Source: an uncultured Flavobacteriales bacterium (GTDB lineage: Bacteria; Bacteroidota; Bacteroidia; Flavobacteriales_G; Salibacteraceae). From it: a DNA stretch of 64,000 nucleotides. A model generated the notes under the pieces. It saw only the letters and a program-made list of their open reading frames with translations, was not told the origin of the DNA and ran no database searches. The position numbers and the translations under genes are program-made. Location: contig CALSRJ010000003.1 of NCBI GenBank assembly GCA_943788725.1, positions 558,001-622,000 on the forward strand, read 5' to 3'. Shown piece by piece: positions 43,710-60,246 of the stretch; position 1 is the first letter of the stretch, and every line of letters starts with the position of its first letter.

Positions 43710-44528
43710 TCAATGGGTATTCCTGGACCACTCGCTCCAAGAACCAGGATACAGCTCAGCGATTTGACCAAAAGCATATGCCATGGCTAGTATTCCATGG
43801 CAGGCAGTAACTCCAGAACCGCAGTAAAAGACTACCTCTTCACCGTTGTCAATCCATGGAGCGTACAATGCGCTTAACTCCTGTGGAGACTTGAAGGTTC
43901 CATCTGCATTGAGGTTCTGCGTGTACGGTACATTGATAGCTCCAGGAATGTGCCCAGCCACGAGGTCAATCGGTTCGTGGACTCCATTGAATCGGTCAGC
44001 TTCGCGAACGTCGATCAGGGCAAGGTGGTGTTCCTTCCTTTCTTCTAATGCTCTCATAGACAGCAAGGGATATTGCCATTGAGAGGCAGGATAGGGTGCT
44101 TTCTCTATGGGGGACGCTTCTTTACTTGCTGTTAAGTTTCCGCCGGCGGCTTGCACCGCTTGATAACCCCCATCGATGACCCAAGTCTGCTCGTGCCCTA
44201 TTGCGCGTAACATCCACCAGCAGCGTGCGGCCGCAAGTGCTCCGTTGTTGCGATCGTATATCACCACTTTGGAGTTTGTGTCAATGCCAAACGTACCAAG
44301 CGTAGCGGCAAAAGACTCGACCGAAGGAAGTGGATGTCTTCCACCAAGGCTAGGGTCTGGCCCTATTTCAGAAAGTTGTGTGTTCAGGTTTATCCATTGC
44401 GCTCCTTCGATGTGCGATTTGGTGTATTCAGCGTAAGCCTCCTTACCAAAGGTCGCGTCCAATAAGACAAGGTCAGGATCGTCGACCATCGAAAGGAAGG
44501 AAACCGCAGAAAGTAGAGTTGAACTCAT
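43710..44528 (-). CDS. 3-mercaptopyruvate sulfurtransferase (tandem rhodanese)
   Basis: A 272-residue protein from the ATG at 44528, with two rhodanese domains. The first (about 5-130) is inactive-type, with VLLDATFGKEAY, HIEGAQWINLN and VVIYDRNNGALAAARCWW. The second (about 160-270) has the active loop YCGSGVTACHG with Cys236. CGSGVT is the signature of mercaptopyruvate-specific enzymes, whereas thiosulfate-specific rhodaneses have CRKGVT. It transfers sulfur from 3-mercaptopyruvate to thiols or cyanide in the cytoplasm. The DUF1853 gene upstream on the same strand ends 71 nt before its start, so they may be cotranscribed. Confidence 0.93.
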   Translation of the reverse strand: MSSTLLSAVSFLSMVDDPDLVLLDATFGKEAYAEYTKSHIEGAQWINLNTQLSEIGPDPSLGGRHPLPSVESFAATLGTFGIDTNSKVVIYDRNNGALAAARCWWMLRAIGHEQTWVIDGGYQAVQAAGGNLTASKEASPIEKAPYPASQWQYPLLSMRALEERKEHHLALIDVREADRFNGVHEPIDLVAGHIPGAINVPYTQNLNADGTFKSPQELSALYAPWIDNGEEVVFYCGSGVTACHGILAMAYAFGQIAELYPGSWSEWSRNTH

Positions 44529-44599
44529 GGTATTGCTGATTTGATAGACGGATGGCCAAAAATAATTTTCAACCTCAGGATGAAAGCCAAGCACTCAAT

Positions 44600-45514
44600 T
44601 TACCACCAAACAATAAAGGTTCGCTCTACCGAACCGTCTGGGTGTAAGGTCCAAACCATAGGGGAATATTTCTGCTGAAGTTGATTAGTAAGCTCACCAT
44701 CGATGCTTGAGCGTGCGTGCCAGGTTCGATTGTACATCGGGTCGATCAGCCATTCTTTGCGCTCGCATAAGTAATGCCGCTTGCCTTCATCTTTCCGAGC
44801 TAAGAATTCTTCTATTCGGCACCACGTTCCGATGATGGCCGATGGACGAATAGAAGGATCGCTTCCTTCGTACGATGAGGGAATGAACGCAAAGCCAGGA
44901 AGGGCCAATTGCTGCTCAGTCGTACCAGGGTCAATTTCGATTGCCTTCAAAAGCGGCAGTGCACGAGGATCATGGAGCAACGCAAATTGTTGATCGTACA
45001 GCTTTTTAACCTTGTGGGCTAAGTAATCGCGACGATTTGGACCCGTCCACTCTTCTCCTTGCTGTGCGTCAGGATCCAACAAGTACCACTTACAAGCCAT
45101 CTCTAGGTGCACCGTCTTTTGACGCTTAAGGTCTCGGTAGAAAAAATCGAATTCACCTAAGGTTCCTCCTTCCACAATGACTTGAACGTTATCTGCGATC
45201 AAATCGAAGTCCGGATGGGTGACCAGGTAATGCTTCATATAGGCCTCGGCGCATTTGCCGATGACCAATCCATCGGGAAGGATCGTTTCAAAAGACGGAA
45301 TGCTGGGGTCAAGGTCCATCTCAAACAGGGCAACCGTCGGATGCTCGACTTCAGCTAGAAGAGAAGTACACTGGTACAATCCCAAAGCACTCAACCGACC
45401 GATTTCTTCTGAAGTGAACATGTTGGCAAGATAGACATGTCTGGCGGTTGTTTCAAGTTCAGCTTTCGCATCTTCGATAACCAATGTTGGGTGTCCAGGG
45501 TGCTCGAATGCCAA
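44600..45514 (-). CDS. DUF1853 family protein
   Basis: A 304-residue protein that fits DUF1853. Recognisable blocks are LGEFDFFYRDLKRQKTVHLE, the following MACKWYLLD, GPNRRDYLAHKVKKLYDQQ and, near the end, SPMVWTLHPDG. The conserved acidic and basic residues around E-D/E-K (VHLEMACKWYL) recall nuclease-like folds, but no activity has been shown to my knowledge. No signal peptide or membrane segment. It may share an operon with the sulfurtransferase. Function unknown. Confidence 0.75.
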   Translation of the reverse strand: MAFEHPGHPTLVIEDAKAELETTARHVYLANMFTSEEIGRLSALGLYQCTSLLAEVEHPTVALFEMDLDPSIPSFETILPDGLVIGKCAEAYMKHYLVTHPDFDLIADNVQVIVEGGTLGEFDFFYRDLKRQKTVHLEMACKWYLLDPDAQQGEEWTGPNRRDYLAHKVKKLYDQQFALLHDPRALPLLKAIEIDPGTTEQQLALPGFAFIPSSYEGSDPSIRPSAIIGTWCRIEEFLARKDEGKRHYLCERKEWLIDPMYNRTWHARSSIDGELTNQLQQKYSPMVWTLHPDGSVERTFIVWW

Positions 45515-45630
45515 ACGGTTCTTTGATCCGCATCCTACTATTCCTAAACCAGACCATCGATCGAAGCGATGGATGCATCCTGAACCCCTTGCAGGTCATT
45601 CATGGAGGTGGACCTTATTTCCACCTGATC

Positions 45631-46251
45631 TTACAATAGGATCAATCCGATGATCGTGTAAGAACCAATATTGGCCACGGCATGGGATGTCCACCCAGGA
45701 ACGATGCTTCCATCCGCCAATTTTTCATTCAAGTACGCCGAAACCAGGGCCCCGATTCCAGAGAAGAAAAAGATGAAAAGGATGAAGAAGATATTGTCTG
45801 TGATGGTGATGAAAATCAGCAGGTGTACTATTCCAAAGATGGCAGCCTGCGTGAGGTTGCCCCATTTGAATCCAATCTAGGCGATGAGCCGCTTAGCAAT
45901 GAATCCTCTAAAGAACAGTTCTTCGGCAAAGGAGGTTTTGATCACTGCTATGAATAGAATACTGATAACGGTTGTCCAGTGCCAACCGAGCGCAGCAAAC
46001 TTGCCTGTAATCGTTTCGGGATCTGCTAATATGGATTTGAACTGCGGATCAACAGCTACTAGCACAAGTGGAGGGACGAGAAAAAGTAAGCTGGCAATTG
46101 CCGCGAGCGCATTGGCCTTGAAATTGGCTCGTTTGATGCCTAAAAACTCAAAGTAGGAAGATTGTTGTCTAAACCAAATGAGGTACACGAGACTTGGAAT
46201 GAGCGCAAAAACAATTACTTGCAATAGGCTGTTGAGGATGTCGCTTAACAT
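45631..46251 (-). pseudogene. CPBP-family intramembrane metalloprotease with in-frame amber codon
   Basis: From the ATG at 46251 the frame runs 124 codons to a TAG at 45879-45877, then stays open in the same frame for 81 more codons to a TAA at 45631. Both parts together give the full CPBP (Rce1-like) protein: motif 1 EELFFRG (Glu110, Glu111, Arg115) before the stop, and motif 2 FGIVHLL and motif 3 SHAVANIG after it. The sequence around the stop, FIAKRLIA-stop-IGFKWGNL, suggests the TAG replaced a TGG (Trp) codon. Transmembrane segments are intact on both sides. As read, the protein would lose its second and third metal-binding motifs. CPBP proteins cleave or process membrane substrates, or act in bacteriocin immunity. 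Confidence 0.82.
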
Positions 46252-46360
46252 GGTGGGTGAGATTACACTCTCAAAATTAAGCAATCAACAAATCAGAAAA
46301 TTCATTGCACATCCTGTTTCGTCGCACCGCATACCTCTTCAATCTATTACCTTCATCGCC

Positions 46361-47260
46361 ATGCGAATACTTCTTCTTTCATTACTACTCATGCTCGGTG
46401 CCTCAGCCCAAGCTCAGGAGGATTACCAAAACATTTTCAATCAACTCACCGAAGAGGGGAATTGGGAGGCCATTCCATCCCTCCTGCAAGGGTGGGAGTC
46501 CGCCAAGCCAAACGATGCTCAACTTTTCGTGGCAAAGTTCAATTACTACTTCCACGCATGTCGGAAAGAGATGATGCAGATGACCACCGAGGAGCCGACA
46601 GTTGAGCACATGGTGATCAATGATACCGCCACAGGAGAACCGGTCGGCTATATGTACAGCGCCTTGGTGTATGACGACTCCATCTTCAGCCTTGCAATGC
46701 AATCCATCGAAGCGGGTTTGAAGCTCTATCCAAAGCGTTTAGATATGCACTTCGGAAAGATCTATGTACTTCGAGAGAAAGGAGAAGTAGGTGAACACAT
46801 CAATGCCGTGTTGAAGGTGATTAGGCTCCATGAAAAGTATCACGATGAATGGCTATGGGCCAATGACGAACCTATCGAAGACATCAATGAAATGTTCACT
46901 GGATCCATGCAAGATTATTGCTACGCGCTCTTCAACATGGCAGAGCCGAGGATCGATGGCGTAGAGCAGATATCGGTGTTGATGACCCAGTTGTATCCCG
47001 CCGATGTGCGATTCTACTCGAACCTAGGCGCATGCAAACTGATGACTCAGGACTTTTCGTCTGCGCTTCAATTCTTCCTTGCTGCCAATGAAAAGCAGAA
47101 GAACGATGCAGTAGTATTGAGCAACATCGCTTACACCTATCTATTGCTCGAACAACCTGACAATGCGAAGCTTTACTACCAGCAGCTGGAAACGACAGGA
47201 GATGCGCAACAGGCGGCATTTGCGCGGGATCAAATCGATCAAATCGATGCGCGCAAGTAA
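46361..47260 (+). CDS. Exported TPR-repeat protein
   Basis: A 299-residue protein; the ATG at 46361 gives signal peptide MRILLLSLLLMLGASAQA. TPR-type helix pairs are visible near the N-terminus (YQNIFNQLTEEGNWEAIPSL) and clearly in the C-terminal part (VRFYSNLGACKLMTQDFSSA, then AVVLSNIAYTYLLLEQPDNA). The middle (residues about 75-200) is less regular. Probably a periplasmic scaffold; the partner is unknown. Divergent from the CPBP gene, with the two starts 110 nt apart. Confidence 0.75.
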   Translation: MRILLLSLLLMLGASAQAQEDYQNIFNQLTEEGNWEAIPSLLQGWESAKPNDAQLFVAKFNYYFHACRKEMMQMTTEEPTVEHMVINDTATGEPVGYMYSALVYDDSIFSLAMQSIEAGLKLYPKRLDMHFGKIYVLREKGEVGEHINAVLKVIRLHEKYHDEWLWANDEPIEDINEMFTGSMQDYCYALFNMAEPRIDGVEQISVLMTQLYPADVRFYSNLGACKLMTQDFSSALQFFLAANEKQKNDAVVLSNIAYTYLLLEQPDNAKLYYQQLETTGDAQQAAFARDQIDQIDARK

Positions 47261-47353
47261 TATCAATCCAAAGGCAAATTCTGATGCAGACGCTTAAAGC
47301 GTCCTCAGAAGAATCAAGGCAATAAGTACATTTACCGCTCACGTAAAACGGAT

Positions 47354-48334
47354 ATGAAAGAATACAAAGACGAAGTAGAGGCAGCAGATGATTTTGGAGT
47401 GAAAGTGAAGGCCTTAAAGGCGGAAGTTAACAAGGTGATAGTTGGACAAGAGGATGTGCTCAATGCATTGTTGACCTCTATCTTCAGCAATGGTCACTGC
47501 CTGCTTGTCGGCGTTCCGGGACTGGCAAAAACTTTACTCGTCAGCACCATCAGCGAGGCCTTAGGACTCAATTTTAGCCGAATCCAATTTACGCCAGACT
47601 TGATGCCTTCAGACATCATCGGTTCTGAGATCTTGGATGAGCATAGAAATTTCAAGTTCATCAAGGGCCCCATCTTCGCTAACATTATCCTAGCAGACGA
47701 GATCAACCGTACACCACCTAAAACCCAAAGTGCCCTGCTTGAAGCCATGCAGGAGCGGGTGGTTACTACAGCTGGACATCGCTATCCTCTTGAGGCGCCC
47801 TTCTTTGTGCTTGCTACGCAAAATCCGATTGAGCAGGAGGGAACCTATCCTTTGCCCGAAGCCCAACTCGATCGTTTTATGTTCAACATTTGGGTAGACT
47901 ACCCATCCTTTGAGGAGGAAGTTCAGATCGTGAAATCGACTACGGGAACGCACGTAGCGAAATTGAATAAGGTGATGTCTTCCGAGGAGATCCTCTTCTT
48001 TCAAAGCCTCGTGCGGCAAGTGCCTGTTCCGGATGGAGTGGTAGACTTCGCCGTAAAGCTCGCCAATTCTACGCGTCCTGCTAAAGACTACTCACCGCAG
48101 ATTACGAATGAATTTGTGAATTGGGGTGCCGGTCCGCGTGCGAGCCAATACCTTGTATTGGGGGCCAAATGCCACGCCCTTATGATGGGTAGGTATACCC
48201 CAGACAACGAAGATGTGCGTGCTGTTGCAACCAACGTTTTGCGTCACCGAATCGTTCGGAACTATAAAGCGGAAGCAGAAGGGGTGTCCACGGAGCACAT
48301 CATCAATGAACTGATGAAGCAGGCTCAGGCGTAG
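47354..48334 (+). CDS. MoxR family AAA+ ATPase
   Basis: A 326-residue cytoplasmic ATPase. Walker A is LLVGVPGLAKT, Walker B is IILADEINRTPPKTQSALLE with sensor 1 LATQNPIEQEGTYPLPEAQL, and the arginine finger lies in LDRFMF. The C-terminal lid domain follows. MoxR ATPases act as chaperones for cofactor insertion or complex assembly and normally sit beside DUF58/VWA and BatA-like genes; none is adjacent here. A near-consensus promoter element (TACATTTA, 47327-47334) lies 20 nt upstream of the ATG. It ends 1 nt from the convergent glycosyltransferase gene. Confidence 0.95.
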   Translation: MKEYKDEVEAADDFGVKVKALKAEVNKVIVGQEDVLNALLTSIFSNGHCLLVGVPGLAKTLLVSTISEALGLNFSRIQFTPDLMPSDIIGSEILDEHRNFKFIKGPIFANIILADEINRTPPKTQSALLEAMQERVVTTAGHRYPLEAPFFVLATQNPIEQEGTYPLPEAQLDRFMFNIWVDYPSFEEEVQIVKSTTGTHVAKLNKVMSSEEILFFQSLVRQVPVPDGVVDFAVKLANSTRPAKDYSPQITNEFVNWGAGPRASQYLVLGAKCHALMMGRYTPDNEDVRAVATNVLRHRIVRNYKAEAEGVSTEHIINELMKQAQA

Positions 48335-48335
48335 A

Positions 48336-49661
48336 TCACAGGTTTCGAATCGGCGATACGATCAATTTTCGTGTGAATTTTGGATAGAAGATGGCCAATG
48401 CCAAGACCAGGTATTCCAGAGCGATGAGGACCATGTTTTCTTCGTAAATGGTGGTTTCATAGGCACTGTAACTTACGAAAATGACCACGCTCCAAATGAC
48501 CGCAAAAGGGCGTCTTGAAAAGATCCCGATGATGATTAAGAACGAGATGTACCAAGGATGCACCGTGGTTCCGAGTAGATAGTAGGTCAGCGATAACCAT
48601 AATGCAGACCGCAACGCCACAGATAGCCTTCCCCACGGTTGTCGCCACCATAAGGAAACGCCTACCAATGCCGTAAGGATTCCCATCGCAGGACCGATTA
48701 CCGCAATGAGATTGTACCCAACCACCGATTCCCCAAGCCAACGGACCACATAGTAAATACTCGCGTTGAATTCAAAGCGTTGGAAGTAAAGATTGATGCT
48801 CTCCATAAAATGCATGAGGTACTCCCACCGAAAGTAAATGGGGAGGAATAGGATCAAACTGCAGCACATGAAGGCCGCGAAGAATTGTACACGATCCTTT
48901 CCCTTGAACACTTTCCAGAGAAATGGAATCATCAGCAATGGAAAAAGCTTGGTAGCCACACTCATAGCCATAGCCCCACCGGCCAGCGCGAAGTTTTTCT
49001 CTTGGATATGACGAAGTGCCAGGACGACGAAAAAGATCATCAAAGCCTCGAAATGGGCATTGCCCAATACATCCACAATCAACAAGGGGTTCAGCATGTA
49101 AAGGACACTGTACTTGGGACTTATGTTGAATTTTAGAAGTACTTGGGGAAGCATCCAAATGGTGGCAATCTCCGCCAACAAGAGGGGTAGCTTGATGATC
49201 AACGACGAAAGGTAGAGGTCGTTGGATGCCAAGGCTCCAAAAGCGCTGATCACCTGGATTACCGTGGGGTATACAGAGTAGTAGGAAGTGGAATTGATCA
49301 GCGGAAAAATCTGCTCAAATGGGGTGTGTAAGTTTTCCTTGTAGAATTCGATAGGAGTTAAGGCATATGGACTGACTCCCTCCAATATCACGGTTCCGTC
49401 CCAAATGAATCTATAAAGATCTTCGCTGAGCGTAGGAAAGGCGAACCAAGCGATGCCTCGAAAAAAGACACCGAGAAAAGCGGCAGAACGTATGCTCCTG
49501 ATTTCTTGATAGAGCACCAAATAAGCGCCACACATGGCGAAGTAAACAGTCAGCAGTTGAACCGTTTCATCACGTGGGGTCATGAAAAGTAAGGCGATTT
49601 CGGCGAAGAGATAAAGCACGACCGCGACGATCGCAATGCTATTGATCCTCGCCCAGCTCAT
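48336..49661 (-). CDS. GT-C type membrane glycosyltransferase (GT87/mannosyltransferase-like)
   Basis: A 441-residue protein with about 11-13 transmembrane helices. A first-loop acidic motif, SEDLYRFIWDG (Glu80-Asp81), is followed by SPYALTPIEFY, the layout of polyprenyl-phosphate-sugar-dependent GT-C enzymes. Other family-like segments are YPTVIQVISAFGA, NPLLIVDVLGNAHFEALM, VATKLFPLLMIPF and GTTVHPWYISFL. These enzymes transfer a sugar, often mannose, from a lipid carrier on the periplasmic side. The start overlaps the stop of the PorE-like gene by 4 nt (ATGA), making it the last gene of the T9SS operon at 49658-56405. That context suggests glycosylation of surface protein or anchor glycan, but this is inference. 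The acceptor is unknown. Confidence 0.82.
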   Translation of the reverse strand: MSWARINSIAIVAVVLYLFAEIALLFMTPRDETVQLLTVYFAMCGAYLVLYQEIRSIRSAAFLGVFFRGIAWFAFPTLSEDLYRFIWDGTVILEGVSPYALTPIEFYKENLHTPFEQIFPLINSTSYYSVYPTVIQVISAFGALASNDLYLSSLIIKLPLLLAEIATIWMLPQVLLKFNISPKYSVLYMLNPLLIVDVLGNAHFEALMIFFVVLALRHIQEKNFALAGGAMAMSVATKLFPLLMIPFLWKVFKGKDRVQFFAAFMCCSLILFLPIYFRWEYLMHFMESINLYFQRFEFNASIYYVVRWLGESVVGYNLIAVIGPAMGILTALVGVSLWWRQPWGRLSVALRSALWLSLTYYLLGTTVHPWYISFLIIIGIFSRRPFAVIWSVVIFVSYSAYETTIYEENMVLIALEYLVLALAIFYPKFTRKLIVSPIRNL

Positions 49662-51646
49662 TCGTTTCGCTCGATACGAAGAATTTCGATGCGTCTTTCC
49701 CGTGCTGCTGTGGGACTGTAAATTGCCCCCAGTTGGTCGCTTAGATCGTCAGATACGTTCACGGCAGCTTGACTCTCCCCATAAGGAATCTTGTCAATGG
49801 TGAGTTGGCCGTTGTTAAGAAATGGCACAAAGGCCCCAGTGTCGTATTGCATGATGTAATTCTCCATGGAGGCGATTCTACGATAGGTCAAGTTAAGGTT
49901 ATAGTCGCTATCTGCAAGGGGAGAGGCGTATCCTTTCACCGCCAAAGTGATTGAAGCTCCCTTATTCAATTCCCTCATAAGCACATTCAATGCCTTGTTC
50001 AACTTGCTCAAACTCCGCTTCAAGTCTTGCTCAAAGAACGATTCCATCACGTTGCCCAGTTCCATTTTGGTGGTTCCGTCATGGGTGCTTCCATTCACAG
50101 CGTCTATGTAGTCGAATCGCATAGCGAGGTATTCAGTAATGGTCTCGGAATAGGTTCGTTTTGTTATACGGGCTGTGGTGCGAGGGTCTGGACGGTCATT
50201 GTGAAAATAAAGGCTGATCGGCAGCAGGGTTTGCAATTCTTCTAGGTTCTGAGGGTTCTCAATTTCAATAACCTCGGGTTCATCTGCGAGCAAGGTGTCC
50301 GATGCTAAACTATCTGAGGGCACTGTGTCGACAACAACAGGGGGAGGGAGGACCTTGACGCGATAAAAATCATTGCAGCAGGTTTCATTGCCACTTTTCT
50401 TCAATCCACTAGCACGATTCGATGCGAAATACCCCAGACTGTCTGCTGTGTGGATATGCATATAATAGTCATCGGCAGGGGAGTTGATCCCCGGTCCTAA
50501 GTTTTCTGGTAGTGCACTGTTTCCAGGAATGCCTTTGGCCTTGAAGACATCGAAACCTCCAAATCCGGGAAGGCGATTGGAACTGTAGTACAACGTTGTA
50601 TCGCTGTGATCAAAGTACGGGGTAATGTCGTCACCCTTCGAATTGACCGTGGAGCCCATGTTCCGCAAACGGCTCGTCGGATTACCCTGCTTCATCGGGA
50701 CAAACCAAAGGTCCATGCCACCCTTTCCCCGCTCACGATTTGAAGCGAAGATGAGGTACTCGTCTTCGCCTACCACTGCGATGGTAGGTTGTGTGCTCAA
50801 AGCGTTGAGAACATTGATAGGATCGGGAAGGGGTTGCGGATCCTGCCAGGTGCTTTCTAGTTTAACCGTCCTCCAGATTTGGCAGCTCGACAATTCTTCG
50901 CAGCGTGAATAATAGAATTGGCTACTGTCTCGGTTGAAAATGCCATTGCCTATGTGCACATCCTTCTCGGCGATGGGAAGGTCTGCGTCCACCAAGCCCC
51001 AAACGTTACCCTCTCGTTTGGCCTTTTTGATCTCAATGAATACAGGGTTGCTCTTTTTGACTTCGTCGCTCTCATAGCGCATGGTGCTGAAGTAAATGCT
51101 TTGAGCATCGATAAAGAAAGGACTCATTTCTGCATGAACTGAATTCAGTCCACTGTCGGGTCGTTGCACCTCAAAGAAAGCCGTATCGTGCTCATGCTCC
51201 ATGGCCCAATAGCAACTGACTTCCTTATCACGCGCCCATCGGTACAGGTCGTCCCGAGATCGGTACATGCTTAAAAACGTTTGAAAACTCATCATGGCCG
51301 TCTTGTACTTCCCGAGCTGCTCGAGCATCAGGCCCTTGTAGAAATGGGCTTCTGGGTATTGATCTTGGCCGTCGATGTCGATGGTCGCATCGTAAAAATC
51401 ATGTGCTCTCCGGTAGTTTCGCAGCATGCGGTAAGCGTTGGCCGTCTGAAAGTTTGCCTCCAGAATATTGGTGTCCAAACGAAGGGCTTTCTTATAATAA
51501 GCCACCGCGGTCTGGTAATACCCAAGTTCAAGTTCTTTTTTTCCCTTGGCAATGTATTGCGCAGCTGATTGGGCTGTGGATTCCACCGAGAGAAGCAGCC
51601 CAATCGCGATGACGAAATATGTCTGGATCAGAGGTAATCTGGGCAT
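49658..51646 (-). CDS. PorE-like OmpA family protein (TPR, propeller, OmpA)
   Basis: A 662-residue protein; the ATG at 51646 gives a signal-like N-terminus (MPRLPLIQTYFVIAIGLLLS) and overlaps the end of the PorP/SprF gene by 19 nt. TPR repeats cover about residues 30-160 (YYQTAVAYYKKALRLDTNIL). PD40-like propeller blades cover about 170-440 (MSPFFIDAQSIYFSTMR, DEYLIFASNRERGKGGMDLW, TLYYSSNRLPGFGGFDVFKA). An OmpA-like domain fills the C-terminus (ITLAVKGYASPLADSDYNLN, RRIASMENYI, RERRIEIL). The architecture matches PorE, the T9SS protein that links the outer-membrane complex to peptidoglycan. The PorE carboxypeptidase-like module is not evident. In this operon it probably tethers the PorP/SprF partner. 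Confidence 0.85.
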   Translation of the reverse strand: MPRLPLIQTYFVIAIGLLLSVESTAQSAAQYIAKGKKELELGYYQTAVAYYKKALRLDTNILEANFQTANAYRMLRNYRRAHDFYDATIDIDGQDQYPEAHFYKGLMLEQLGKYKTAMMSFQTFLSMYRSRDDLYRWARDKEVSCYWAMEHEHDTAFFEVQRPDSGLNSVHAEMSPFFIDAQSIYFSTMRYESDEVKKSNPVFIEIKKAKREGNVWGLVDADLPIAEKDVHIGNGIFNRDSSQFYYSRCEELSSCQIWRTVKLESTWQDPQPLPDPINVLNALSTQPTIAVVGEDEYLIFASNRERGKGGMDLWFVPMKQGNPTSRLRNMGSTVNSKGDDITPYFDHSDTTLYYSSNRLPGFGGFDVFKAKGIPGNSALPENLGPGINSPADDYYMHIHTADSLGYFASNRASGLKKSGNETCCNDFYRVKVLPPPVVVDTVPSDSLASDTLLADEPEVIEIENPQNLEELQTLLPISLYFHNDRPDPRTTARITKRTYSETITEYLAMRFDYIDAVNGSTHDGTTKMELGNVMESFFEQDLKRSLSKLNKALNVLMRELNKGASITLAVKGYASPLADSDYNLNLTYRRIASMENYIMQYDTGAFVPFLNNGQLTIDKIPYGESQAAVNVSDDLSDQLGAIYSPTAARERRIEILRIERNE

Positions 51647-52638
51647 TGCCGCAAGCGCTTGACTTTTTCTCGTACCGTGGGAATGATATAAATCACCGTC
51701 GCTTCCCAACCCCCGCGGTAGTTGGTGGATGGTTGAAGCCGTGAAAGGTTGAAGTCATAGGACCCACCCACGTACAAGTTGTTCAATTGAACACCAATCG
51801 AAGTGTAGGCGGCATCGTTCAACCGATACCAAAAACCCATCTGCACTGAGCGCGGGTTCATTGGACCTGTGCTCAGGTGATAGCGAAAGGCACTTCCACC
51901 TTGCAGTTCGGTATGTGGGCCTTGCCATTGATACTTGACACCGGGCATGAAATCCCACACCCCACCGATCGGAAATGAAGTGAGTACGTGAACATCATAC
52001 CTGCGTTCTAAGCGATTTTCCGTGTTTTTATAGAAGCTTCGATCAGGCTGTGTCAGGTTCATGGAGCTGAAGCCAATTCCCCATCGGTTTCGCTCTGAGA
52101 AGCGTTGCTCGAGATAGGCGCCAGCTCCGAAATTCAAAAGGTTCGAACTCCCATTCCCAAACGACTGTTGCGTGGCAAGGTTGGGGTCAAAGCGAATGCC
52201 GTTGAATTGATCGTCAAACGTCAGTTTACTGTAGTCGATGCTCTGCATCCAAAATCCGCCTTGCGCACCAATGTGAAGAAATAGGTTGCGGTCTCCGATG
52301 AGCGGGAAACGCTTTGAAACCATGCCATAAACCTGGGTTGTGGTCAGGCTGGAAAGTCCAGCAAAGTCATGTGAAAATTGCAGTCCAGCACCCGTATTCT
52401 TGATGTTGAAAGGGGCGTTGACGTCAAAGGCACCGCCGAAGGTTTGAAAGGGTTGTGCGGATACCGACCACCATTGGTTGCGCGTGATGCCATGGAGCCG
52501 ATAGGTCCCTTCGAAATGTCCGGTCAACGCTGGGTTAGTAAAGGTTGGAGCTGCGAAGAACTGACTGAAATGGATGTCCTGCGCTTGAGAAAGCATTCCC
52601 ATTAAAACGAGCGATATGGTCCAGAGTAGCTTCCTCAT
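51628..52638 (-). CDS. PorP/SprF family outer membrane protein
   Basis: A 336-residue barrel with signal peptide MRKLLWTISLVLMGMLSQA and the family signature right after it: QDIHFSQFFAAPTFTNPALT, then YRLHGITRNQWW. Further family blocks are GAGLQFSHDFAGLSS, RWGIGFSSMNLTQPD, PMNPRSVQMGFWYRLND and GGSYDFNLSRLQ. In Flavobacterium johnsoniae, SprF-type proteins are needed for secretion or surface attachment of the type B cargo encoded beside them. Here the cargo gene lies directly upstream with a 4-nt ATGA overlap, so this is very likely its dedicated partner. Confidence 0.95.
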   Translation of the reverse strand: MRKLLWTISLVLMGMLSQAQDIHFSQFFAAPTFTNPALTGHFEGTYRLHGITRNQWWSVSAQPFQTFGGAFDVNAPFNIKNTGAGLQFSHDFAGLSSLTTTQVYGMVSKRFPLIGDRNLFLHIGAQGGFWMQSIDYSKLTFDDQFNGIRFDPNLATQQSFGNGSSNLLNFGAGAYLEQRFSERNRWGIGFSSMNLTQPDRSFYKNTENRLERRYDVHVLTSFPIGGVWDFMPGVKYQWQGPHTELQGGSAFRYHLSTGPMNPRSVQMGFWYRLNDAAYTSIGVQLNNLYVGGSYDFNLSRLQPSTNYRGGWEATVIYIIPTVREKVKRLRQCPDYL

Positions 52639-55600
52639 TTGAGTAGCGTAACGTTTCCTTTCGTTTTGTATTCCTCATCGGTAATGCATACCGCCCGCAG
52701 CTGATATACATAAACCGCCTTGTCTGCCCCCTTTCCTTTGTAGGTTCCGTCCCATCCTTCAACAGGGTCTTCGGTGTAAAATACCTCATTGCCCCAGCGA
52801 TCAAACACGGAGAATTCCATCTCCTTGATGTTGCGTCCGCGCACGAACAATTTGTCATTGACGCCATCTCCATCGGGCGAAAATGCCGAGGGAACGAAGA
52901 CTTCAGGAGTATCACAGAGAATTTCAAAGGGCTTGATAATGACGGTATCGCGGAAGGTGCATCCCTTCGCAATCGAATCGCTTACCACCCAGATGTACAT
53001 CATTTCTTCCTTGGGTTGAGCCGTAGGGTCGGAGGAGAGAGGGTCGCTGAGGTACTTGTCGGGCGTCCAGTAGTAATCCAGTCCAGGGCCAGAAGGCGAC
53101 CCGTGCAGCTGCACGATTTGTCCGCGATAGAAGGTGTCTACCTCTGCATAAGCCTCAACCATGGAGGCATCGAGTTGCGACACATTCAATCGTACAGTGT
53201 CCTCCGCGGTACAACCACCAGCCGCAATGCCTACAGCGCGTAGATAGAAGGTCTGCGCTGAATCCAAGACAACCTCGATGAAGTTCTGATCTGTTGGGGC
53301 AATCGTTTCGTTTGGATTGCTGGTGAAGCCATCCAAACTCCAGTAATACGTGAAGGTGTTGAATGGGTTTTGAGAAATGGCACGGATGATCGTGGGATCA
53401 TTTTTACAAATGGTGCTATCACCGGTCAATTCAATGTCTAAATCTGAAACAGTAATCAGCACTGTATCGATCATTTGACAGCCGTTGTTTTTGGTGGTTC
53501 TGAAGTAGAAATAATTGAGCGGATCGGGAAGGGCGTCGATCAAGTAAACGCTGTCTGTGCTCAAGATCGAAGTGAACGAAGGATCGTCGCTCCATTCGTA
53601 TGTGGCGGAATCATTCAAGGCACTTCCGCTGATGAAAAACGGTGTGTATGAGCTGCATACAATCGTGTCGCTCGAGGATTGAATCGGGTAGGCGTCGATA
53701 TTGATCTGCTGAAGAATGCGCTCTTGACAACCTCCGTAATCAATGACAAGTCGGTACAAGGTAGAACTGGTGACCGTAGCGGTAGGGTTCAAACTGTTCG
53801 GATCGTCCAAGTTGGTAATGGGAAGCCAAGAAAGGGTCGCATTGTTCAAGTCTTGATATTCGTTTGGGTCCGGACCTAAAACGGCAGATTCACCAATGCA
53901 TCGTTCGATCTCTGGCAGCGTAAAGTTGGTGTCTTGTGCGATCGTAATCTGACGGATCAGCGTGTCGGAGAGGTTGCAACTGGTAGGGTCGTTTACGATG
54001 AGTCGCACGTCGTACGTGCCCTTTGAATTAAAGGTGATCGAGGGATTCGTTTGCGTGGACGTTTGTCCATTTCCAAAATCCCATACAAATGAAGTGCTGC
54101 TTTGGGTTACGCTGTTGTTTTGAAGGTTCAGCGTGAAAGGAGCGCAAGCGAAGGGCGGAATATTAAAGTCGGCCACTACGATCGGCAACTCAAAGTCAAT
54201 CTTGAAAACGGCATTGTTGCAATTGAAACTGTTGTTGGTCTCAGACCACGCTCCTGGATCGGGTACTATCGGGAAGTCGTCAAAACCACCACAACTAGCG
54301 CAAACGCTGTGGTAGATCTGTCCGCCGCGGTCAAAGCGACTGGTTCCACCATCCACGTGGTCGTCAGAGAGTAAACCGCCGTAAAAAGATCCAAAGACCA
54401 AGGAGTTTCCATCTGCAGCCACTACCGCTAAGTAAAAATCAGATCCATCGTTGTCAGGGTTGGCGCGGAAAGCGTCGAAAGTCGTTTGCAAGCCATCCAC
54501 ATTGCTTGCATTATTAAAGTTAGAGTTTGAGTTCAGAGGGCCACCCCATCCGCTGATGTATACCGAATTGCACACATCGACCAAGAAAGCCGTAGGCGAA
54601 ATGTTGGGCTGTCCTGGCGTGCTTCCGAACTGGGTCGTCCATTCACGCTCGCTGAGGTCGGGTTTCAATACGCCAAGGATCTGTCCGCCACCTGGATTGT
54701 TCCAATTGGCATTGAAGATCATTTGGCTTCCCGTGTGTTCGGTTTGGCCAAAGAAATGCGGATGGTCTCTCCGGTCGAGTTGCATGATGTAAATCTGATC
54801 GTAGGCAGCAGAACCGTAATAGGTAGCATGCAAGATGGAGTCGCCGCCTGCGCTGAGTTCGGCGATGAAGCCATCGGCGCGACCTCCGCGGTAACTCGTG
54901 TTGTAAGCCCCTTGGGTAGTGGGGAAATCAGTTGAGCTTGTTCCGCCTCCGACGTAAACGGTTCCATCAGTTGCCACATCCACACCGTAGGCCGCTTCGT
55001 CATTTTCTCCACCAATAAAGGTTGACCAGAGTACATCCGTGAGGGCAGGAGTTAGTTTTGTGAGAACGGCATCTTGACCACCGTTGTGCGACAGGTCAAA
55101 TCCATTCAATACGGGGAAGTCAGTGCTGTAGGTGCAGGAAGAAACGTAGACATTTTCTTCGTCGTCTAGGTTAATCTCTCCGCGAAACTCATCGGAGTAA
55201 TTGTAGTCAAGGTCCTGACTTAGGTTGAGCCCGTCCGTGTTCGTTCCTCCCAAATAGGTCGATCCGAGCAGTGAGGAGCCAGATGCGTTGAAGCCGGTGA
55301 TGAAGATGTCTACCCCGTCTGAAATGTTTCCGAAGATGTTTACCGAAGGCCCACCCGCGAAAGTGCGATCGAAGGCTGTAGTGGTAGTAGGGAAATTCTC
55401 GGAACCCGTAGAACCCATCACATAGAGGTTTCCAGTGCTGTTGACAATCAAGCTATGGGGATGATCGTAACCATTTCCACCCAAGTAGGTGGAAAAAACC
55501 AGCTGCGTGCCGGAGGTGTCGTATTTGGTGATGGCTACATCACAAGTTCCAAAATTGAAGGATTGATCGAAGGCTCCCGTAGTATAGGGATACCCAGTTC

Positions 55601-56405
55601 CGAAGACAATTCCTCCAGCGTACAAAAAACCATTGTTGTCAGGCGCGGCTGTGAAGCCCCAGTTGTCAGAGGTGCTTCCCGAAAAGGTGGAGAAGATGAC
55701 TTCTGGATCGATGACCAAAGGAAGAAAAGGGTCGACCTCCCCCAGGTCGTACGAAAGGCTACCGTTTTTGAGTAAAAAGTGACCTTCGACCTCGAACTCC
55801 CGCTTGGCATTGTATTGATACACATACGGCGCAAGTTCAACGATGTCTTGAAGGGAAGTTCGCATAATGAGGTTCTCTTCACGATCGAGGTATAGCTCGT
55901 CCAAGCCCTCGGTTTCGATTTGAATCACAGATGCATCTACCCCGGCATCAATGTGAAACTCGTACTTCAAGGTCTGGCCATTGTGCATCACGTGTAAATC
56001 GATGCCGTCGTATAAGTCGCGGTAGATTACCGTCTGCACCGGGTGAATGGAGTGTCGCCATTTCGTAGGGTCATTTCCCAGGTAAAAATTCTCGTAGGCA
56101 GTCGATTGATTCTCCACGTCAAAGAGCACGTTCGCGTTGGCACCCACAAAGTGAAGCTTGAAGGCGTGGTGACGCATCACATCGCCAGAATCCAACTTAC
56201 GATCGTGGAAGGCTTCCAATTTTTCGGGGTCCACCAAGTGAAAAGTAATGGTTCCTTGTTCCAAAAACACGGCACCAGTGGGGATGTCAGCTCGAAATAC
56301 GAAGGGGCCGTCCCATTGCCCTAGGTTGCGCACAAATCCATCTGCATGGGCCGAAATCGCCATGAAAAGAAAGGTTAAGATGGAAAGGAAATGTCTCATT
56401 CGCAT
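52635..56405 (-). CDS. Giant T9SS type B surface protein with SBBP/propeller and PKD domains
   Basis: A 1256-residue protein with signal peptide MRMRHFLSILTFLFMAISAHA. The N-terminal domain (about 22-230) is a DUF7948-type module: FVRNLGQWDGPFVFRADI, TAYENFYLGNDPTKWRHS, VIYRDLYDGIDLHVM. SBBP-type beta-propeller repeats follow (about 235-740): VVFGTGYPYTTGAF, STYLGGNGYDHPHSL, DGTVYVGGGTSSTDFPTT. Next are a PKD domain (about 765-830, SFVWDFGNGQTSTQ), several Ig-like repeats, and the type B sorting domain (VPSAFSPDGDGVNDKLF, FDRWGNEVFY, GWDGTYKGK, GNVTLLK end). About a dozen D-S/T-hydrophobic sequons lie in the second half. By family it is a surface adhesin or motility-type protein. It heads a four-gene overlapping operon with PorP/SprF, PorE-like and GT-C genes. 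Confidence 0.93.
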   Translation of the reverse strand: MRMRHFLSILTFLFMAISAHADGFVRNLGQWDGPFVFRADIPTGAVFLEQGTITFHLVDPEKLEAFHDRKLDSGDVMRHHAFKLHFVGANANVLFDVENQSTAYENFYLGNDPTKWRHSIHPVQTVIYRDLYDGIDLHVMHNGQTLKYEFHIDAGVDASVIQIETEGLDELYLDREENLIMRTSLQDIVELAPYVYQYNAKREFEVEGHFLLKNGSLSYDLGEVDPFLPLVIDPEVIFSTFSGSTSDNWGFTAAPDNNGFLYAGGIVFGTGYPYTTGAFDQSFNFGTCDVAITKYDTSGTQLVFSTYLGGNGYDHPHSLIVNSTGNLYVMGSTGSENFPTTTTAFDRTFAGGPSVNIFGNISDGVDIFITGFNASGSSLLGSTYLGGTNTDGLNLSQDLDYNYSDEFRGEINLDDEENVYVSSCTYSTDFPVLNGFDLSHNGGQDAVLTKLTPALTDVLWSTFIGGENDEAAYGVDVATDGTVYVGGGTSSTDFPTTQGAYNTSYRGGRADGFIAELSAGGDSILHATYYGSAAYDQIYIMQLDRRDHPHFFGQTEHTGSQMIFNANWNNPGGGQILGVLKPDLSEREWTTQFGSTPGQPNISPTAFLVDVCNSVYISGWGGPLNSNSNFNNASNVDGLQTTFDAFRANPDNDGSDFYLAVVAADGNSLVFGSFYGGLLSDDHVDGGTSRFDRGGQIYHSVCASCGGFDDFPIVPDPGAWSETNNSFNCNNAVFKIDFELPIVVADFNIPPFACAPFTLNLQNNSVTQSSTSFVWDFGNGQTSTQTNPSITFNSKGTYDVRLIVNDPTSCNLSDTLIRQITIAQDTNFTLPEIERCIGESAVLGPDPNEYQDLNNATLSWLPITNLDDPNSLNPTATVTSSTLYRLVIDYGGCQERILQQINIDAYPIQSSSDTIVCSSYTPFFISGSALNDSATYEWSDDPSFTSILSTDSVYLIDALPDPLNYFYFRTTKNNGCQMIDTVLITVSDLDIELTGDSTICKNDPTIIRAISQNPFNTFTYYWSLDGFTSNPNETIAPTDQNFIEVVLDSAQTFYLRAVGIAAGGCTAEDTVRLNVSQLDASMVEAYAEVDTFYRGQIVQLHGSPSGPGLDYYWTPDKYLSDPLSSDPTAQPKEEMMYIWVVSDSIAKGCTFRDTVIIKPFEILCDTPEVFVPSAFSPDGDGVNDKLFVRGRNIKEMEFSVFDRWGNEVFYTEDPVEGWDGTYKGKGADKAVYVYQLRAVCITDEEYKTKGNVTLLK

Positions 56406-56452
56406 AACAGAACTGGTAAAGATAAAAGACTAAATCCAGCACGAAAGGTTGG

Positions 56453-56469
56453 CCTACTTAAAAAGTAGG
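56453..56469. promoter_or_regulatory. Perfect palindrome between divergent operons
   Basis: CCTACTT (56453-56459), AAA, AAGTAGG (56463-56469) is a perfect 7-bp inverted repeat. It is 48 nt upstream of the type B protein start on the minus strand, behind a near-consensus -7 element TATCTTTA (56424-56417), and 76 nt upstream of the membrane protein gene on the plus strand. It could be an operator serving one or both divergent units. Binding protein unknown. Confidence 0.4.
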
Positions 56470-56544
56470 GAGCAACGAACCCAGGCCCTTGAACGGTAGT
56501 TTGTACCCTCATTTCCGTTTACTTTGTAACTCAAAGTGAAATCC

Positions 56545-57189
56545 ATGGAATCAAACGAACAACCACTCGACGCGCTGAGGGATATCAAAGCCTTGATGGA
56601 GCGCAGTTCGCGTTTCATATCCCTGAGCGGCTTAGCAGGCGTTTTCAGCGGAATCTTCGCACTGGTCGGCGCGGCAGCTGCTTACTGGCGCGTCAACATC
56701 GCTCCTTGGGCGGTACGCAGTGATGACACCCCCTTTGGAACCGGTCGCATCGTGCACATCGATACGGATGTAGCGAGTTTTTTAGCAATTGATGCCATCC
56801 TTGTCTTGCTGGCGAGCATTGCGGTGTCGTACATCTTCACGAAACGGAAAGCGCGACGTAAGCAACAACCCCTGTGGGGAGCGTACAGCAGGCATATGCT
56901 CATGAATCTCAGCGTTCCCTTGGTTACCGGAGGGCTCTTTTGCCTCATCCTCTTTTACCACGGCTTGATTGGATTGATTGCACCCGCCACGCTCGTCTTC
57001 TATGGGTTGGCTTTGATGAATGCGGGTAGGTTTAGCCTCGAGGAGATCAGTTACCTCGGATTGTCAGAGGTGATCCTAGGGCTAATATGCATGGCATTTC
57101 TCGGTTATGGGTTGATTTTCTGGGCTTTGGGATTTGGCTTGTTGCACATTATCTACGGCATCTTAATGTACGTGCGTCACGACCGATGA
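56545..57189 (+). CDS. Integral membrane protein paired with a winged-helix regulator
   Basis: A 214-residue protein from the ATG at 56545. The first 25 residues are soluble (MESNEQPLDALRDIKALMER). Five or six hydrophobic segments follow, e.g. ISLSGLAGVFSGIFALVGAAA and FLAIDAILVLLASIAVSYIF. I know this as a conserved Bacteroidota membrane protein without assigned function, usually encoded with the small winged-helix gene that follows; here the two overlap by 4 nt (ATGA). A near-consensus promoter (TTACTTTG, 56519-56526, with TTTG at 56500) precedes it. A sensor role for the pair is only a guess. Confidence 0.75.
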   Translation: MESNEQPLDALRDIKALMERSSRFISLSGLAGVFSGIFALVGAAAAYWRVNIAPWAVRSDDTPFGTGRIVHIDTDVASFLAIDAILVLLASIAVSYIFTKRKARRKQQPLWGAYSRHMLMNLSVPLVTGGLFCLILFYHGLIGLIAPATLVFYGLALMNAGRFSLEEISYLGLSEVILGLICMAFLGYGLIFWALGFGLLHIIYGILMYVRHDR

Positions 57190-57485
57190 AAGGGATCATC
57201 CATCAACTCGACAAGGCTTTTGAGAGTCGTATTCGTCTCGGCATCATGTCGGTGCTGACGGTAAACGAGTGGGTGGAATTCAATGAACTCAAGCAATTGT
57301 TGGACGTAACGGATGGCAACTTAGCCAGCCACATAGCTGCGCTTGAAAAGAAGGGCTTTCTCGAAGTGCGCAAGCGATTTGTAGGCAAAAAACCGAATAC
57401 TTCCTTCCGCATCAGTCAAGCAGGAAGGACGGCATTCGAGCACCATATCGCTGCATTGGAAAATTTATTGAGGCAACAAGGATAA
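57186..57485 (+). CDS. Winged-helix transcriptional regulator
   Basis: A 99-residue protein from the ATG at 57186 (MKGIIHQLDKAFESRIRLGI). Helix-turn-helix: VEFNELKQLLDVTDGNLASH as recognition helix region, IAALEKKGFLEVRKRFVGKK into the wing, then TSFRISQAGRTAFEHHIAAL. It matches the short MarR/ArsR-like winged-helix proteins (HTH_27 type). Its start overlaps the membrane protein stop, so the two are made together. The palindrome at 56453 is a candidate target. Effector unknown. Confidence 0.9.
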   Translation: MKGIIHQLDKAFESRIRLGIMSVLTVNEWVEFNELKQLLDVTDGNLASHIAALEKKGFLEVRKRFVGKKPNTSFRISQAGRTAFEHHIAALENLLRQQG

Positions 57486-57514
57486 AATTGTGAGCATGTT
57501 GTTATTTTTAGCAC

Positions 57515-58297
57515 GTGCATTTCATCGCAGAAAATCTTAAGTTCATTCGCAAACAAAAGGGGTGGACACAAGACCAATTGGCCCACCAATTGGGCGTTAA
57601 GCGTTCGTTGATCGGCGCATACGAAGAGGGAAGGGCCGATCCACGCATTTCATTTTTAATGCACCTCTGTCAGAAATTCGGCTATTCCTTGGACCAATGG
57701 GTGGGTAAACCACTTGACGATCAGACTACCCCGAATGACCGATACAGCGGCAATAACTTGCGCATCTTGCCGATTACCATCGATCGGCAGGAGAATACAG
57801 AACGGGTTTCTCTGGTTCCAGTGCAGGCAGCAGCCGGCTACCTCAATGGTTTTGGTGACGCAGAATTCATTGAGTCCTTGCCCATGTTTGATCTTCCTTT
57901 TCCGGAAGTATCCAAGGGTAAGACCTATCGCATTTTTCAGATCAAAGGAGACAGCATGCTGCCCATCCCTTCCGGGGCATATATTTTGGGCAGCTACGTC
58001 ATGGATTGGACAGGTGTTCGAAACGATGAACCTTACCTCGTGATCAGTAAATCTGAGGGCATCGTCTTCAAACGAATCCTCAATAACCTCAACAATGGCC
58101 ATTTAACATTGAAGAGCGATAATCCTACCTACGACCCATTCGATTTAGAAGCAAATGATATTGCGGAAATATGGAAGGCAGAAGGTGTTACTACATTTGG
58201 ATTCGATCAACACCACCATGCTGGTCACACAGACTTAATGGAAGAATTGAAGTCCATCCAACAAAAACTGGACGCGATTACACAACAAAATAACTGA
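57515..58297 (+). CDS. XRE/LexA-type S24 peptidase transcriptional regulator
   Basis: A 260-residue repressor; the GTG at 57515 gives the family-typical start MHFIAENLKFIRKQKGWTQD. The HTH (about 5-60) reads DQLAHQLGVKRSLIGAYEEG. The S24 (LexA/CI-like) domain has an Ala107-Gly108 cleavage-type site in VPVQAAAGYLNG, nucleophile Ser147 in GDSMLPIPSG and general base Lys186 in GIVFKRILN. A C-terminal helix (LMEELKSIQQKLDAITQQN) may form a coiled coil. The full catalytic set suggests RecA-stimulated self-cleavage, though in Bacteroidota many such proteins are single-copy and not phage-borne. No prophage genes surround it. The next gene follows closely (31 nt). Confidence 0.9.
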   Translation: MHFIAENLKFIRKQKGWTQDQLAHQLGVKRSLIGAYEEGRADPRISFLMHLCQKFGYSLDQWVGKPLDDQTTPNDRYSGNNLRILPITIDRQENTERVSLVPVQAAAGYLNGFGDAEFIESLPMFDLPFPEVSKGKTYRIFQIKGDSMLPIPSGAYILGSYVMDWTGVRNDEPYLVISKSEGIVFKRILNNLNNGHLTLKSDNPTYDPFDLEANDIAEIWKAEGVTTFGFDQHHHAGHTDLMEELKSIQQKLDAITQQNN

Positions 58298-58328
58298 GAC
58301 GATATGTCAAGCGGATGAAAGAACGGTC

Positions 58329-59834
58329 GTGCTGCGGCACTTGACCTTAGAGGATTATAATGACTTGAAGGATGCGATGATACAAGCCTACAGTGGCAGT
58401 CGTATGAGCTATTGGGGGCATGGGAACATATCAGATATCCTGCAGATATTTCCAGAAGGACAGATTTGCGTGGAGATGAACGGTACCGTTGTGGCTGCTG
58501 CGCTCTCTTTAATTGTGGATTACAGTAAATACGGAGACGATCACACCTATCAGGAAATGACCGGTGATTATACCTTTTCGACCCATGACCCTTCTGGTGA
58601 TGTGCTGTATGGCATCGAAATTTTTGTGCATCCCGAGTACAGAGGCTTGCGGCTAGCGCGTCGACTATATGATGCGCGAAAAGAGCTGTGTGAGAATCTC
58701 AATCTTCGGAGCATCATTGCGGGAGGCAGAATACCTGGTTATGCCAAACAGGCAGACAAGATGACGCCTGGCGAATACATCGAAAAAGTGCGCGTCAACG
58801 AGCTTTATGACCCCATTTTGTCATTTCAACTCGGCAATACTTTCCACGTTCGACGTGTGCTCAATAATTACCTCGAAGGAGACATTCAGTCGCAGGAATA
58901 CGCTACGCTCATAGAATGGAACAACCTATACTATGAAGCCAAACCCAAATTGATCAACCGCCAGAAGTCGGTGGTTAGCTTGGGATTGGTTCAGTGGCAG
59001 ATGCGCCCAACCCCAGACCTCGATGCCTTAAAAGAACAGATTGAGTTCTTCGTCGATGCTGTGGCGGGATATAATAGCGATTTCGTGCTGTTTCCCGAAC
59101 TCTTCAATGCTCCACTACTCGCCAAATACAACGATATGGTCGAGGCTAAGGCAATGCGTGAACTGGCGAGTTTTTCAGGTCCACTGCTCAGCTATTTTAA
59201 GGAATTGGCCGTGGCTTATAATGTCAACATCATCACCGGAAGTTACCCGGTATTGGATGGAGAGAAGCTGTATAACGTTTCCCATCTCTGCAGGAGGGAT
59301 GGAAGCAGTGAGGAGTACAGAAAGATCCACATTACGCCAAGTGAAGTGAGTGCTTGGGGAATTTCAGGAGGAGACAACCTAGGGATATTCGACACGGACT
59401 GCGGAAAGATTGGTGTGGTCATTTGCTACGATGTTGAATTTCCTGAACTGGGAAGGCTATATGCAGATCAGGGGGTACAAATCCTTTTCGTTCCTTTTCT
59501 CACAGACACTCAAAACGGATACCACCGCGTTCGAAGGTGTGCCCAGGCAAGGGCAATTGAGAATGAGTGCTATGTGGCCATCGCGGGCTGTGTGGGAAAC
59601 TTGCCGAAGGTGAGTAACATGGACATTCAGTATGCGCAAAGCGCAGTGTTTACCCCAGCGGATTTTGCCTTTCCTGAGAATGCCGTGAAGGCGCAAGCGA
59701 CTCCCAACAATGAGATGACATTGATCGTTGACGTAGACCTCGATTTACTGCGAGAGTTGAATACCAAAGGAAGCGTTAGAAACCTGCACGACCGCCGCAC
59801 AGATCTCTATGAAGTCGGAATAAAAAAATCTTAG
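58329..59834 (+). CDS. GNAT acetyltransferase fused to nitrilase-type amidohydrolase
   Basis: A 501-residue two-domain enzyme. Residues 1-180 are a GNAT domain (YGIEIFVHPEYRGLRLARRL binds acetyl-CoA). Residues about 215-490 are a carbon-nitrogen hydrolase with the full triad Glu257 (FVLFPELFN), Lys332 (EYRKIHITPSE) and Cys366 (GVVICYDVEFPE). The fused form is widespread in bacteria; the substrate is unknown, though amide hydrolysis linked to acetyl transfer is plausible. The only start in frame before the GNAT domain is the GTG at 58329. An ATG at 58315 (MKER) is one base out of frame, so either GTG is used or an indel hides a longer start. It lies 31 nt after the S24 regulator. Confidence 0.9.
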   Translation: MLRHLTLEDYNDLKDAMIQAYSGSRMSYWGHGNISDILQIFPEGQICVEMNGTVVAAALSLIVDYSKYGDDHTYQEMTGDYTFSTHDPSGDVLYGIEIFVHPEYRGLRLARRLYDARKELCENLNLRSIIAGGRIPGYAKQADKMTPGEYIEKVRVNELYDPILSFQLGNTFHVRRVLNNYLEGDIQSQEYATLIEWNNLYYEAKPKLINRQKSVVSLGLVQWQMRPTPDLDALKEQIEFFVDAVAGYNSDFVLFPELFNAPLLAKYNDMVEAKAMRELASFSGPLLSYFKELAVAYNVNIITGSYPVLDGEKLYNVSHLCRRDGSSEEYRKIHITPSEVSAWGISGGDNLGIFDTDCGKIGVVICYDVEFPELGRLYADQGVQILFVPFLTDTQNGYHRVRRCAQARAIENECYVAIAGCVGNLPKVSNMDIQYAQSAVFTPADFAFPENAVKAQATPNNEMTLIVDVDLDLLRELNTKGSVRNLHDRRTDLYEVGIKKS

Positions 59835-59895
59835 GGTAAAATTTGTTGAAGTGGTATTCCTTTCCCATTACTTTGTCCGAGGAAACAATACTATT

Positions 59896-60246
59896 ATGTC
59901 ATCAGGAAAGCCAAGGATCGCAAAGGACTACGATAAGCTTACAGAAGAACTGATCAATCAGATCAAATTGGAATACCCATTTGGATTTGAAGAGAATCTT
60001 ATTTCTTATAAAGATGCCAAAGGCAATAAGATCAGTGCATTGCCTTTTGAAACCGAAGAAGTCTACTATTTAGTCAGAATGACCAAGGCTGAGGCACAAC
60101 AGATCATTGAAGACGACTCTGATTACGACGGCGATGGTAATTTAAGAGAAGGCTTTGCGGATGATATTGAGTCTGACGATTCGGAGGAAGAAGAATCAGC
60201 AGAGGACGTTCCAAATGAGGATTCAAGCGACGACGAGGAATATTAA
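59896..60246 (+). CDS. Conserved Bacteroidota protein with acidic tail
   Basis: A 116-residue protein from the ATG at 59896 (MSSGKPRIAKDYDKLTEELI). Residues 1-85 are a conserved compact domain (KLEYPFGFEENLISY, ALPFETEEVYYLVRMTKAEA). The last 35 residues are almost wholly Asp/Glu/Ser and end in DDEEY. I recognise it as widespread in Flavobacteriales but without known function; the acidic tail recalls nucleic-acid mimic or RNA-polymerase-associated proteins, which is only suggestive. Its stop overlaps the next start (TAATG). A TTACTTTG element about 25 nt upstream may be the promoter. Confidence 0.78.
   Translation: MSSGKPRIAKDYDKLTEELINQIKLEYPFGFEENLISYKDAKGNKISALPFETEEVYYLVRMTKAEAQQIIEDDSDYDGDGNLREGFADDIESDDSEEEESAEDVPNEDSSDDEEY

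Follow-up and report, generated by a model that had tools for sequence, protein, structure and literature searches.

We conclude, with a probability of roughly three in four, that a GT-C type glycosyltransferase gene belonging to a glycan pathway has become lodged in a T9SS anchoring operon in the window, by which we mean the whole 64,000-nucleotide stretch of DNA analysed here. The reading draws on four things that we observed: the gene order, the co-occurrence of this glycosyltransferase (hereafter GT) with two other glycosyltransferase genes, its pattern of presence and absence on a tree of relatives, and its predicted fold. The locus (48336-56405, minus strand) consists of four genes with successive overlaps of 4, 19 and 4 nt, a layout that the earlier note on this DNA had described correctly, with its coordinates and all three overlaps:

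56536-57189, plus strand: divergent gene without a Pfam match, the upstream boundary
52635-56405, minus strand: T9SS type B cargo, 1256 aa, with the domains DUF7948, SBBP beta-propeller repeat, PKD, Ig_7 and a CHU_C sorting domain
52635-52638, minus strand: cargo/porP overlap, ATGA, 4 nt
51628-52638, minus strand: PorP/SprF family outer-membrane partner, 336 aa, from profile matches
51628-51646, minus strand: porP/porE-like overlap, 19 nt counted with the ATG start
49658-51646, minus strand: PorE-like protein, 662 aa, with TPRs, a PorE-model match and a weakly OmpA/Pal-like C-terminal part
49658-49661, minus strand: porE-like/GT overlap, ATGA, 4 nt
48336-49661, minus strand: putative GT-C type glycosyltransferase, 441 aa, from sub-cut-off profiles and predicted fold
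47354-48334, plus strand: convergent moxR-type AAA gene, the downstream boundary

The start of the PorE-like gene was taken as its ATG; the longest frame would begin at a TTG at 51709. The block is closed at both ends, with the GT stop abutting the stop of the convergent moxR gene and the gene upstream of the cargo running divergently, and no tRNA was found near the GT slot in window positions 44000-60000. Read from the sequence, the overlaps suggest that the four genes are coupled, which is less than the fixed protein proportions that had been deduced from them.

The first three genes form a conserved trio of an already published kind, so that their description as a sensible unit holds, and the GT gene is truly overlapped into this trio in the present lineage. 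The cargo scores above the cut-offs of TIGR04131 (44.4 bits, cut-off 35) and PF13585/CHU_C (57 bits, cut-off 27) and thus carries a T9SS type B CTD; the PorP/SprF protein, whose gene overlaps that of the cargo, scores above those of TIGR03519 (165.2 against 90.55 bits) and PF11751 (141.1 against 22.3 bits) and is thus a member of its family. The cargo had also been called giant, a term that does not suit 1256 aa when open frames with a type B match reach 4194 aa in the window genome. The third protein earns the name PorE-like in part: TPR_2 and TPR_1 match above cut-off, TPR structures are also matched, and the NCBIfam PorE model aligns, but over residues 15-413 only and below its cut-off (161.6 against 600 bits), as does CHU_0125 (172.4 against 620). 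Its C-terminal part has Pal as its best PDB match, weak at E 0.012, with OmpA-like models below cut-off. No lipobox cysteine was found in its N-terminal signal region when the translation was read by eye, and the protein therefore does not classify as a lipoprotein, the form in which PorE is described in an excerpt of PMC9143113.

The excerpted literature reports a PorE-PorP-PG1035 complex in P. gingivalis and six porP-like genes adjoining porE-like genes in F. johnsoniae (PMC9143113, in part), and it gives five as the number of operons in which a PorE homolog is found together with a type B substrate and an SprF-like shuttle, for which static anchoring to the cell wall is suggested (PMC12618676, in part). 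As far as these excerpts describe them, P. gingivalis PG1035-PorP-PorE, F. johnsoniae Fjoh_3952-3951-3950 and four more operons share with the window a type B cargo, an adjacent PorP/SprF gene and a PorE-like gene downstream; the window differs in that its PorE-like protein scores below the PorE cut-off and lacks a lipobox cysteine, and in the GT-C gene behind it. All 15 loci retrieved from the family's other genera show the trio contiguous (they come from 15 of the 21 non-slot relatives there, G015 not counted), and the contig of G022 holds only part of the cargo. Among the more distant porE loci L125-L127, it was seen in one, L127. Cargo homologs were present in 100 of 120 relatives and PorE-like homologs in 91 of 120, distant matches being possible paralogs.

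The window genome itself holds 12 PorP/SprF matches and 41 CHU_C matches, 40 of them over cut-off, and a CHU_C match lies within 500 bp upstream of 8 of the 12 PorP genes. The first gene in the window, at 65-2350 (plus strand), carries the last of four plus-strand type B CTD matches (C3:552549-560287 of the genome), about 2.5 kb apart in open frames of 828-856 aa, which by their arrangement in the sequence are possibly a tandem cargo array. Elsewhere in the genome, at C1:993236-993454 (minus strand), a type B CTD match with an in-frame TGA lies beside a PorP gene (C1:992253-993164).

The product of the fourth gene has a predicted GT-C fold. Its structure model is confident (pLDDT 92.0, pTM 0.93), and all nine top-ranking Foldseek hits are either GT-C enzymes or chains of GPI-transamidase subunit U, itself GT-C-like. 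The best solved matches, GPI mannosyltransferase I with Dol-P-Man, ALG6 with Dol-P-Glc, ALG3 and PimE, share the predicted fold with probability 1.00 and TM 0.44-0.56, all at E > 0.001; no Foldseek match of the model reached E ≤ 0.001. In a PDB profile search up to E 1 the sole match was again PimE, weak at E 0.018. These four enzymes depend on polyprenyl- or dolichyl-phosphate sugars and act on lipid-linked acceptors, and because the modelled fold resembles theirs, we favour a lipid-linked acceptor for the GT over direct protein glycosylation. The earlier note had described the GT as a periplasm-facing GT-C enzyme of family GT87; the predicted fold bears out the GT-C assignment, but the protein falls below the cut-off of GT87/PF09594 (21.9 against 25 bits), as it does below that of MptB (34.3 against 40 bits), and is a member of neither. 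Partial matches to NCBIfam TIGR03459 and MptB, both below cut-off, give the GT some similarity to the corynebacterial mannosyltransferases MptA and MptB; the two models span 470 and 553 positions against the 441 aa of the GT.

The position of the GT gene is constant within the window genus. A GT homolog occurs in 23 of 42 genomes of the order (E 1e-30); it is present in 8 of the 13 genomes of the genus, every time behind porE, and likewise in G015 of a neighbouring genus. In all nine of these slot loci the GT gene lies between the PorE-like gene and the convergent moxR gene, which stands beside the slot in 9/9, and the 4-nt porE/GT overlap is retained in 9/9 at GT identities of 48-90%. The complete four-gene order was called in eight of the nine, the porP of L076 (G009) having been lost to the ORF filter on a contig that begins inside the cargo. 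The five genomes of the genus without a GT (G010, G006, G012, G004 and G002) still have the trio genes. In the first four (L078, L079, L080 and L081) an RlmL-like methyltransferase gene occupies the exact GT slot, with the PorE-like and moxR genes on either side, while the contig of G002 stops at the PorE-like gene, where the slot is unreadable. A diverged GT in the slot of this clade is ruled out, the slot gene being an RlmL/THUMP methyltransferase (four sequences; Pfam on one). In G004 (L081, C3:356000-374000) the porE-like gene, moxR and several neighbouring genes are all broken into short frames, leaving the trio in pieces; since several neighbours share the breaks, they are probably assembly indels, not the decay of one gene.

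A tree built from aligned cargo, PorP and PorE sequences unites the five genomes lacking a GT in a single clade, whose sister group is the eight that carry one; G015 falls outside both (G002 entered with 44% of columns). The simplest reading of this pattern is one gain and one loss of the slot GT, in that presumed direction. Beyond the genus, 10 genomes from the family's other genera, which likewise have the trio, carry a GT homolog (27-36% identity) at another place in the genome. The GT loci of G036 and G038 are on short contigs that leave linkage unsettled there, and in L107 (G023) a cargo-like gene stands at the edge of the stretch. The GT is thus not kept wherever the trio is, either in the genus or in these other genera, and the dedicated module proposed in the earlier note is refuted by the very result that the note had named for this.

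What the GT does accompany is a pair of other glycosyltransferases: c4, a polyprenyl-phosphate-hexose-synthase-like (AglJ/DPM-type) GT2, and c6, a membrane GT2. Within the order, 21 of 23 GT-bearing genomes have c6 and 20 of 23 have c4; among the 19 GT-less ones the numbers are 1 and 0. Across 395 genomes of the class, c6 is present in 66 of 69 genomes with a GT and in 26 of 326 without (P 1.7e-49 at a GT cut of E 1e-45), a P value that, like the others for co-occurrence, counts related genomes as independent and so overstates certainty, and some of the 26 do carry a GT, though one too weak for the 1e-45 cut (G049, G093, G114). Outside the window's own order the figures are 56 of 59 against 25 of 320. 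A GT without c6 was seen in G009 and G041 in the order and in G076, G369 and G394 in the class. An independent event stands beside the P values: in the GT-less clade of the window genus, GT, c4 and c6 are jointly absent while the trio genes remain. The cargo homolog is not tied to the GT in this way (35 of 40 GT-bearing against 65 of 80 GT-less relatives, P 0.45).

The same partnership is visible in gene neighbourhoods. Of the 56 genomes from outside the order that have both GT and c6, 36 have the two genes no more than 300 bp apart and 43 no more than 3 kb apart. The typical arrangement in 80 named loci from Bacteroidota and Balneolota is c4-c6-GT, frequently preceded by c44, which resembles a Pyr_redox_2 protein, and c24, which resembles a NapH-like iron-sulfur protein. 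At least one of c4 and c6 is encoded on the strand of the GT and no more than 3 kb from it in 57/80; a T9SS gene is directly adjacent in 2/80, L128 and L129, which both belong to the window's lineage. In 40 further GT loci from the class sample, c4 and/or c6 are within 3 kb on the same strand in 29, a T9SS gene is within 6 kb in 4 and directly adjacent in none (40 of 46 new loci were fetched, leaving out G371, G242, G274, G164, G402 and G124). In the relatives set, c4/c6 are near the GT in 14 of 37 loci and a T9SS gene is directly adjacent in 9 of 37, which are the nine slot loci. The CTD, PorP and PorE profiles behind these neighbourhood counts derive from close relatives, and more remote family members may have escaped them. 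In the window genome (G000) c4-c6 occupy C3:672324-674496, outside the window and some 65 kb away from the GT. G005 and G015 each keep an unbroken row c44-c24-c11-c4-c6 elsewhere that ends without a GT, which is what a move of the GT out of this row would leave.

The full row c44-c24-c11-c4-c6-GT-C recurs across Bacteroidota lineages and in one Balneolaceae genome (L096, L088, L133, L146, L158, L191, L207 and others), and G000 has only c4-c6. The full redox cassette is ruled out as an obligate partner of the GT: c24 occurs in 17 of 42 genomes of the order and is absent from G000. In the open-licence papers searched, we recognised no description of this row, no GT in a PorP/PorE unit and no such GT pathway in Bacteroidota. 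In Salegentibacter flavus (L177:283-11311) c4-c6-GT is preceded on its own strand, after a gap of 125 bp, by a trio of type B cargo, PorP and PorE genes, a lone neighbourhood that fits chance, T9SS genes being common.

The earlier note had proposed a dedicated module, in which the GT would glycosylate the cargo in the periplasm before export, coupling secretion, anchoring and glycosylation, and we now regard this as highly improbable. The overlap retained in all nine slot loci speaks for it, as does the sequon count of the cargo, which the note had put at about a dozen: there are 11 D-S/T-[AILVMT] sequons (motif as defined in an excerpt of PMC10897501), where shuffling gives a mean of 6.0 (sd 2.4; P 0.04). 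Sequon density, however, does not follow the GT, with 6.2-9.5 per 1000 aa in the nine slot-linked cargos, 7.2-8.8 in the four readable GT-less cargos of the same genus, and 12.0-21.7 in the other 14 cargos of the family, whose genomes carry the GT elsewhere or have none. Enrichment as a sign of cargo glycosylation is therefore ruled out, since cargos without a linked GT are equally rich or richer. The proposal also fails on distribution: the trio persists without the GT in the sister clade of the genus, GT homologs sit elsewhere in other genera that have the trio, and the GT follows c4 and c6, not the cargo. The window cargo does share the D-S/T-X motifs of general protein O-glycosylation in Bacteroidota, a system whose core flippase, OTase and ligase are stated to be undiscovered in an excerpt of PMC12871550. 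According to the same excerpt the LFG locus starts with metG and a wzx flippase and ends with two conserved GTs, a gene content that differs from that of the window locus. At E 1e-45 the GT occurs in only 69 of the 395 class genomes, short of the breadth expected of a shared core O-glycosylation step, which it does not fit.

There are two further alternatives. In one, which we consider unlikely, the GT still serves the c4-c6 pathway, and its place behind porE has been kept since glycan and anchored adhesin are usefully made together. Selection for coupling is conceivable, as the overlap has survived through the whole range of slot GT identity, and looser neighbourhoods of a similar kind exist in S. 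flavus and in G040, from another family, where the trio, one gene and then the GT lie on one strand (the c16 gene of G040 is called pirin-like by eye, with no family search behind the label). Against this, the convergent moxR gene has stayed next to the slot with equal fidelity, a sign of high background synteny; and 15.2% of the window genome is no farther than 6 kb from a match to CHU_C or PorP, so that single T9SS neighbours of the GT, such as the 4 among the 40 class loci, are expected. In the other, the slot GT would have been acquired from outside the family and have a function of its own, different from that of its c4-c6-linked homologs. Quick trees do place the slot GTs with Saprospiria sequences, apart from the other GTs of the family (support 91; 93 in a second tree; the group table of the first tree was set aside, its label having also caught families f11, f13 and f14), but uniting them with five of those other GTs is not rejected (AU p 0.417), and all but one of the 9 genomes with a slot GT possess c4 and c6 too; we judge this origin very unlikely.

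On the preferred reading, that a glycan-pathway gene is lodged in the anchoring operon, PorP would take over the cargo once it has been exported to the surface, and the PorE-like protein, with a periplasmic anchoring role suggested by homology, would tie the complex to the cell wall. The GT would serve a separate membrane glycan pathway together with c4 and c6: c4 would make a lipid-phosphate sugar donor, c6 would make or extend the acceptor, and the GT would add a sugar on the periplasmic side, with the cargo presumably not among its acceptors. The GT gene would have come behind porE in the common ancestor of the window genus and one neighbouring genus, where it is probably carried on a shared transcript. 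A bolder form, which we hold to be quite unlikely, places the GT at the end of a so far undescribed membrane glycan pathway found in many Bacteroidota lineages, consisting of an AglJ/DPM-like GT2, a membrane GT2 and the GT-C and frequently preceded by genes for a flavin oxidoreductase and a NapH-like iron-sulfur protein; expression of the GT would here have come under the T9SS anchoring operon, so that surface glycan and anchored adhesin are made together.

The locus illustrates that overlapping junctions conserved within one lineage can come from shared ancestry, not shared function. The tempting functional link between the trio and the GT is replaced by a stronger one, between the GT and two other glycosyltransferases, whose joint presence and absence over hundreds of genomes marks a pathway and provides a more useful lead than the module.
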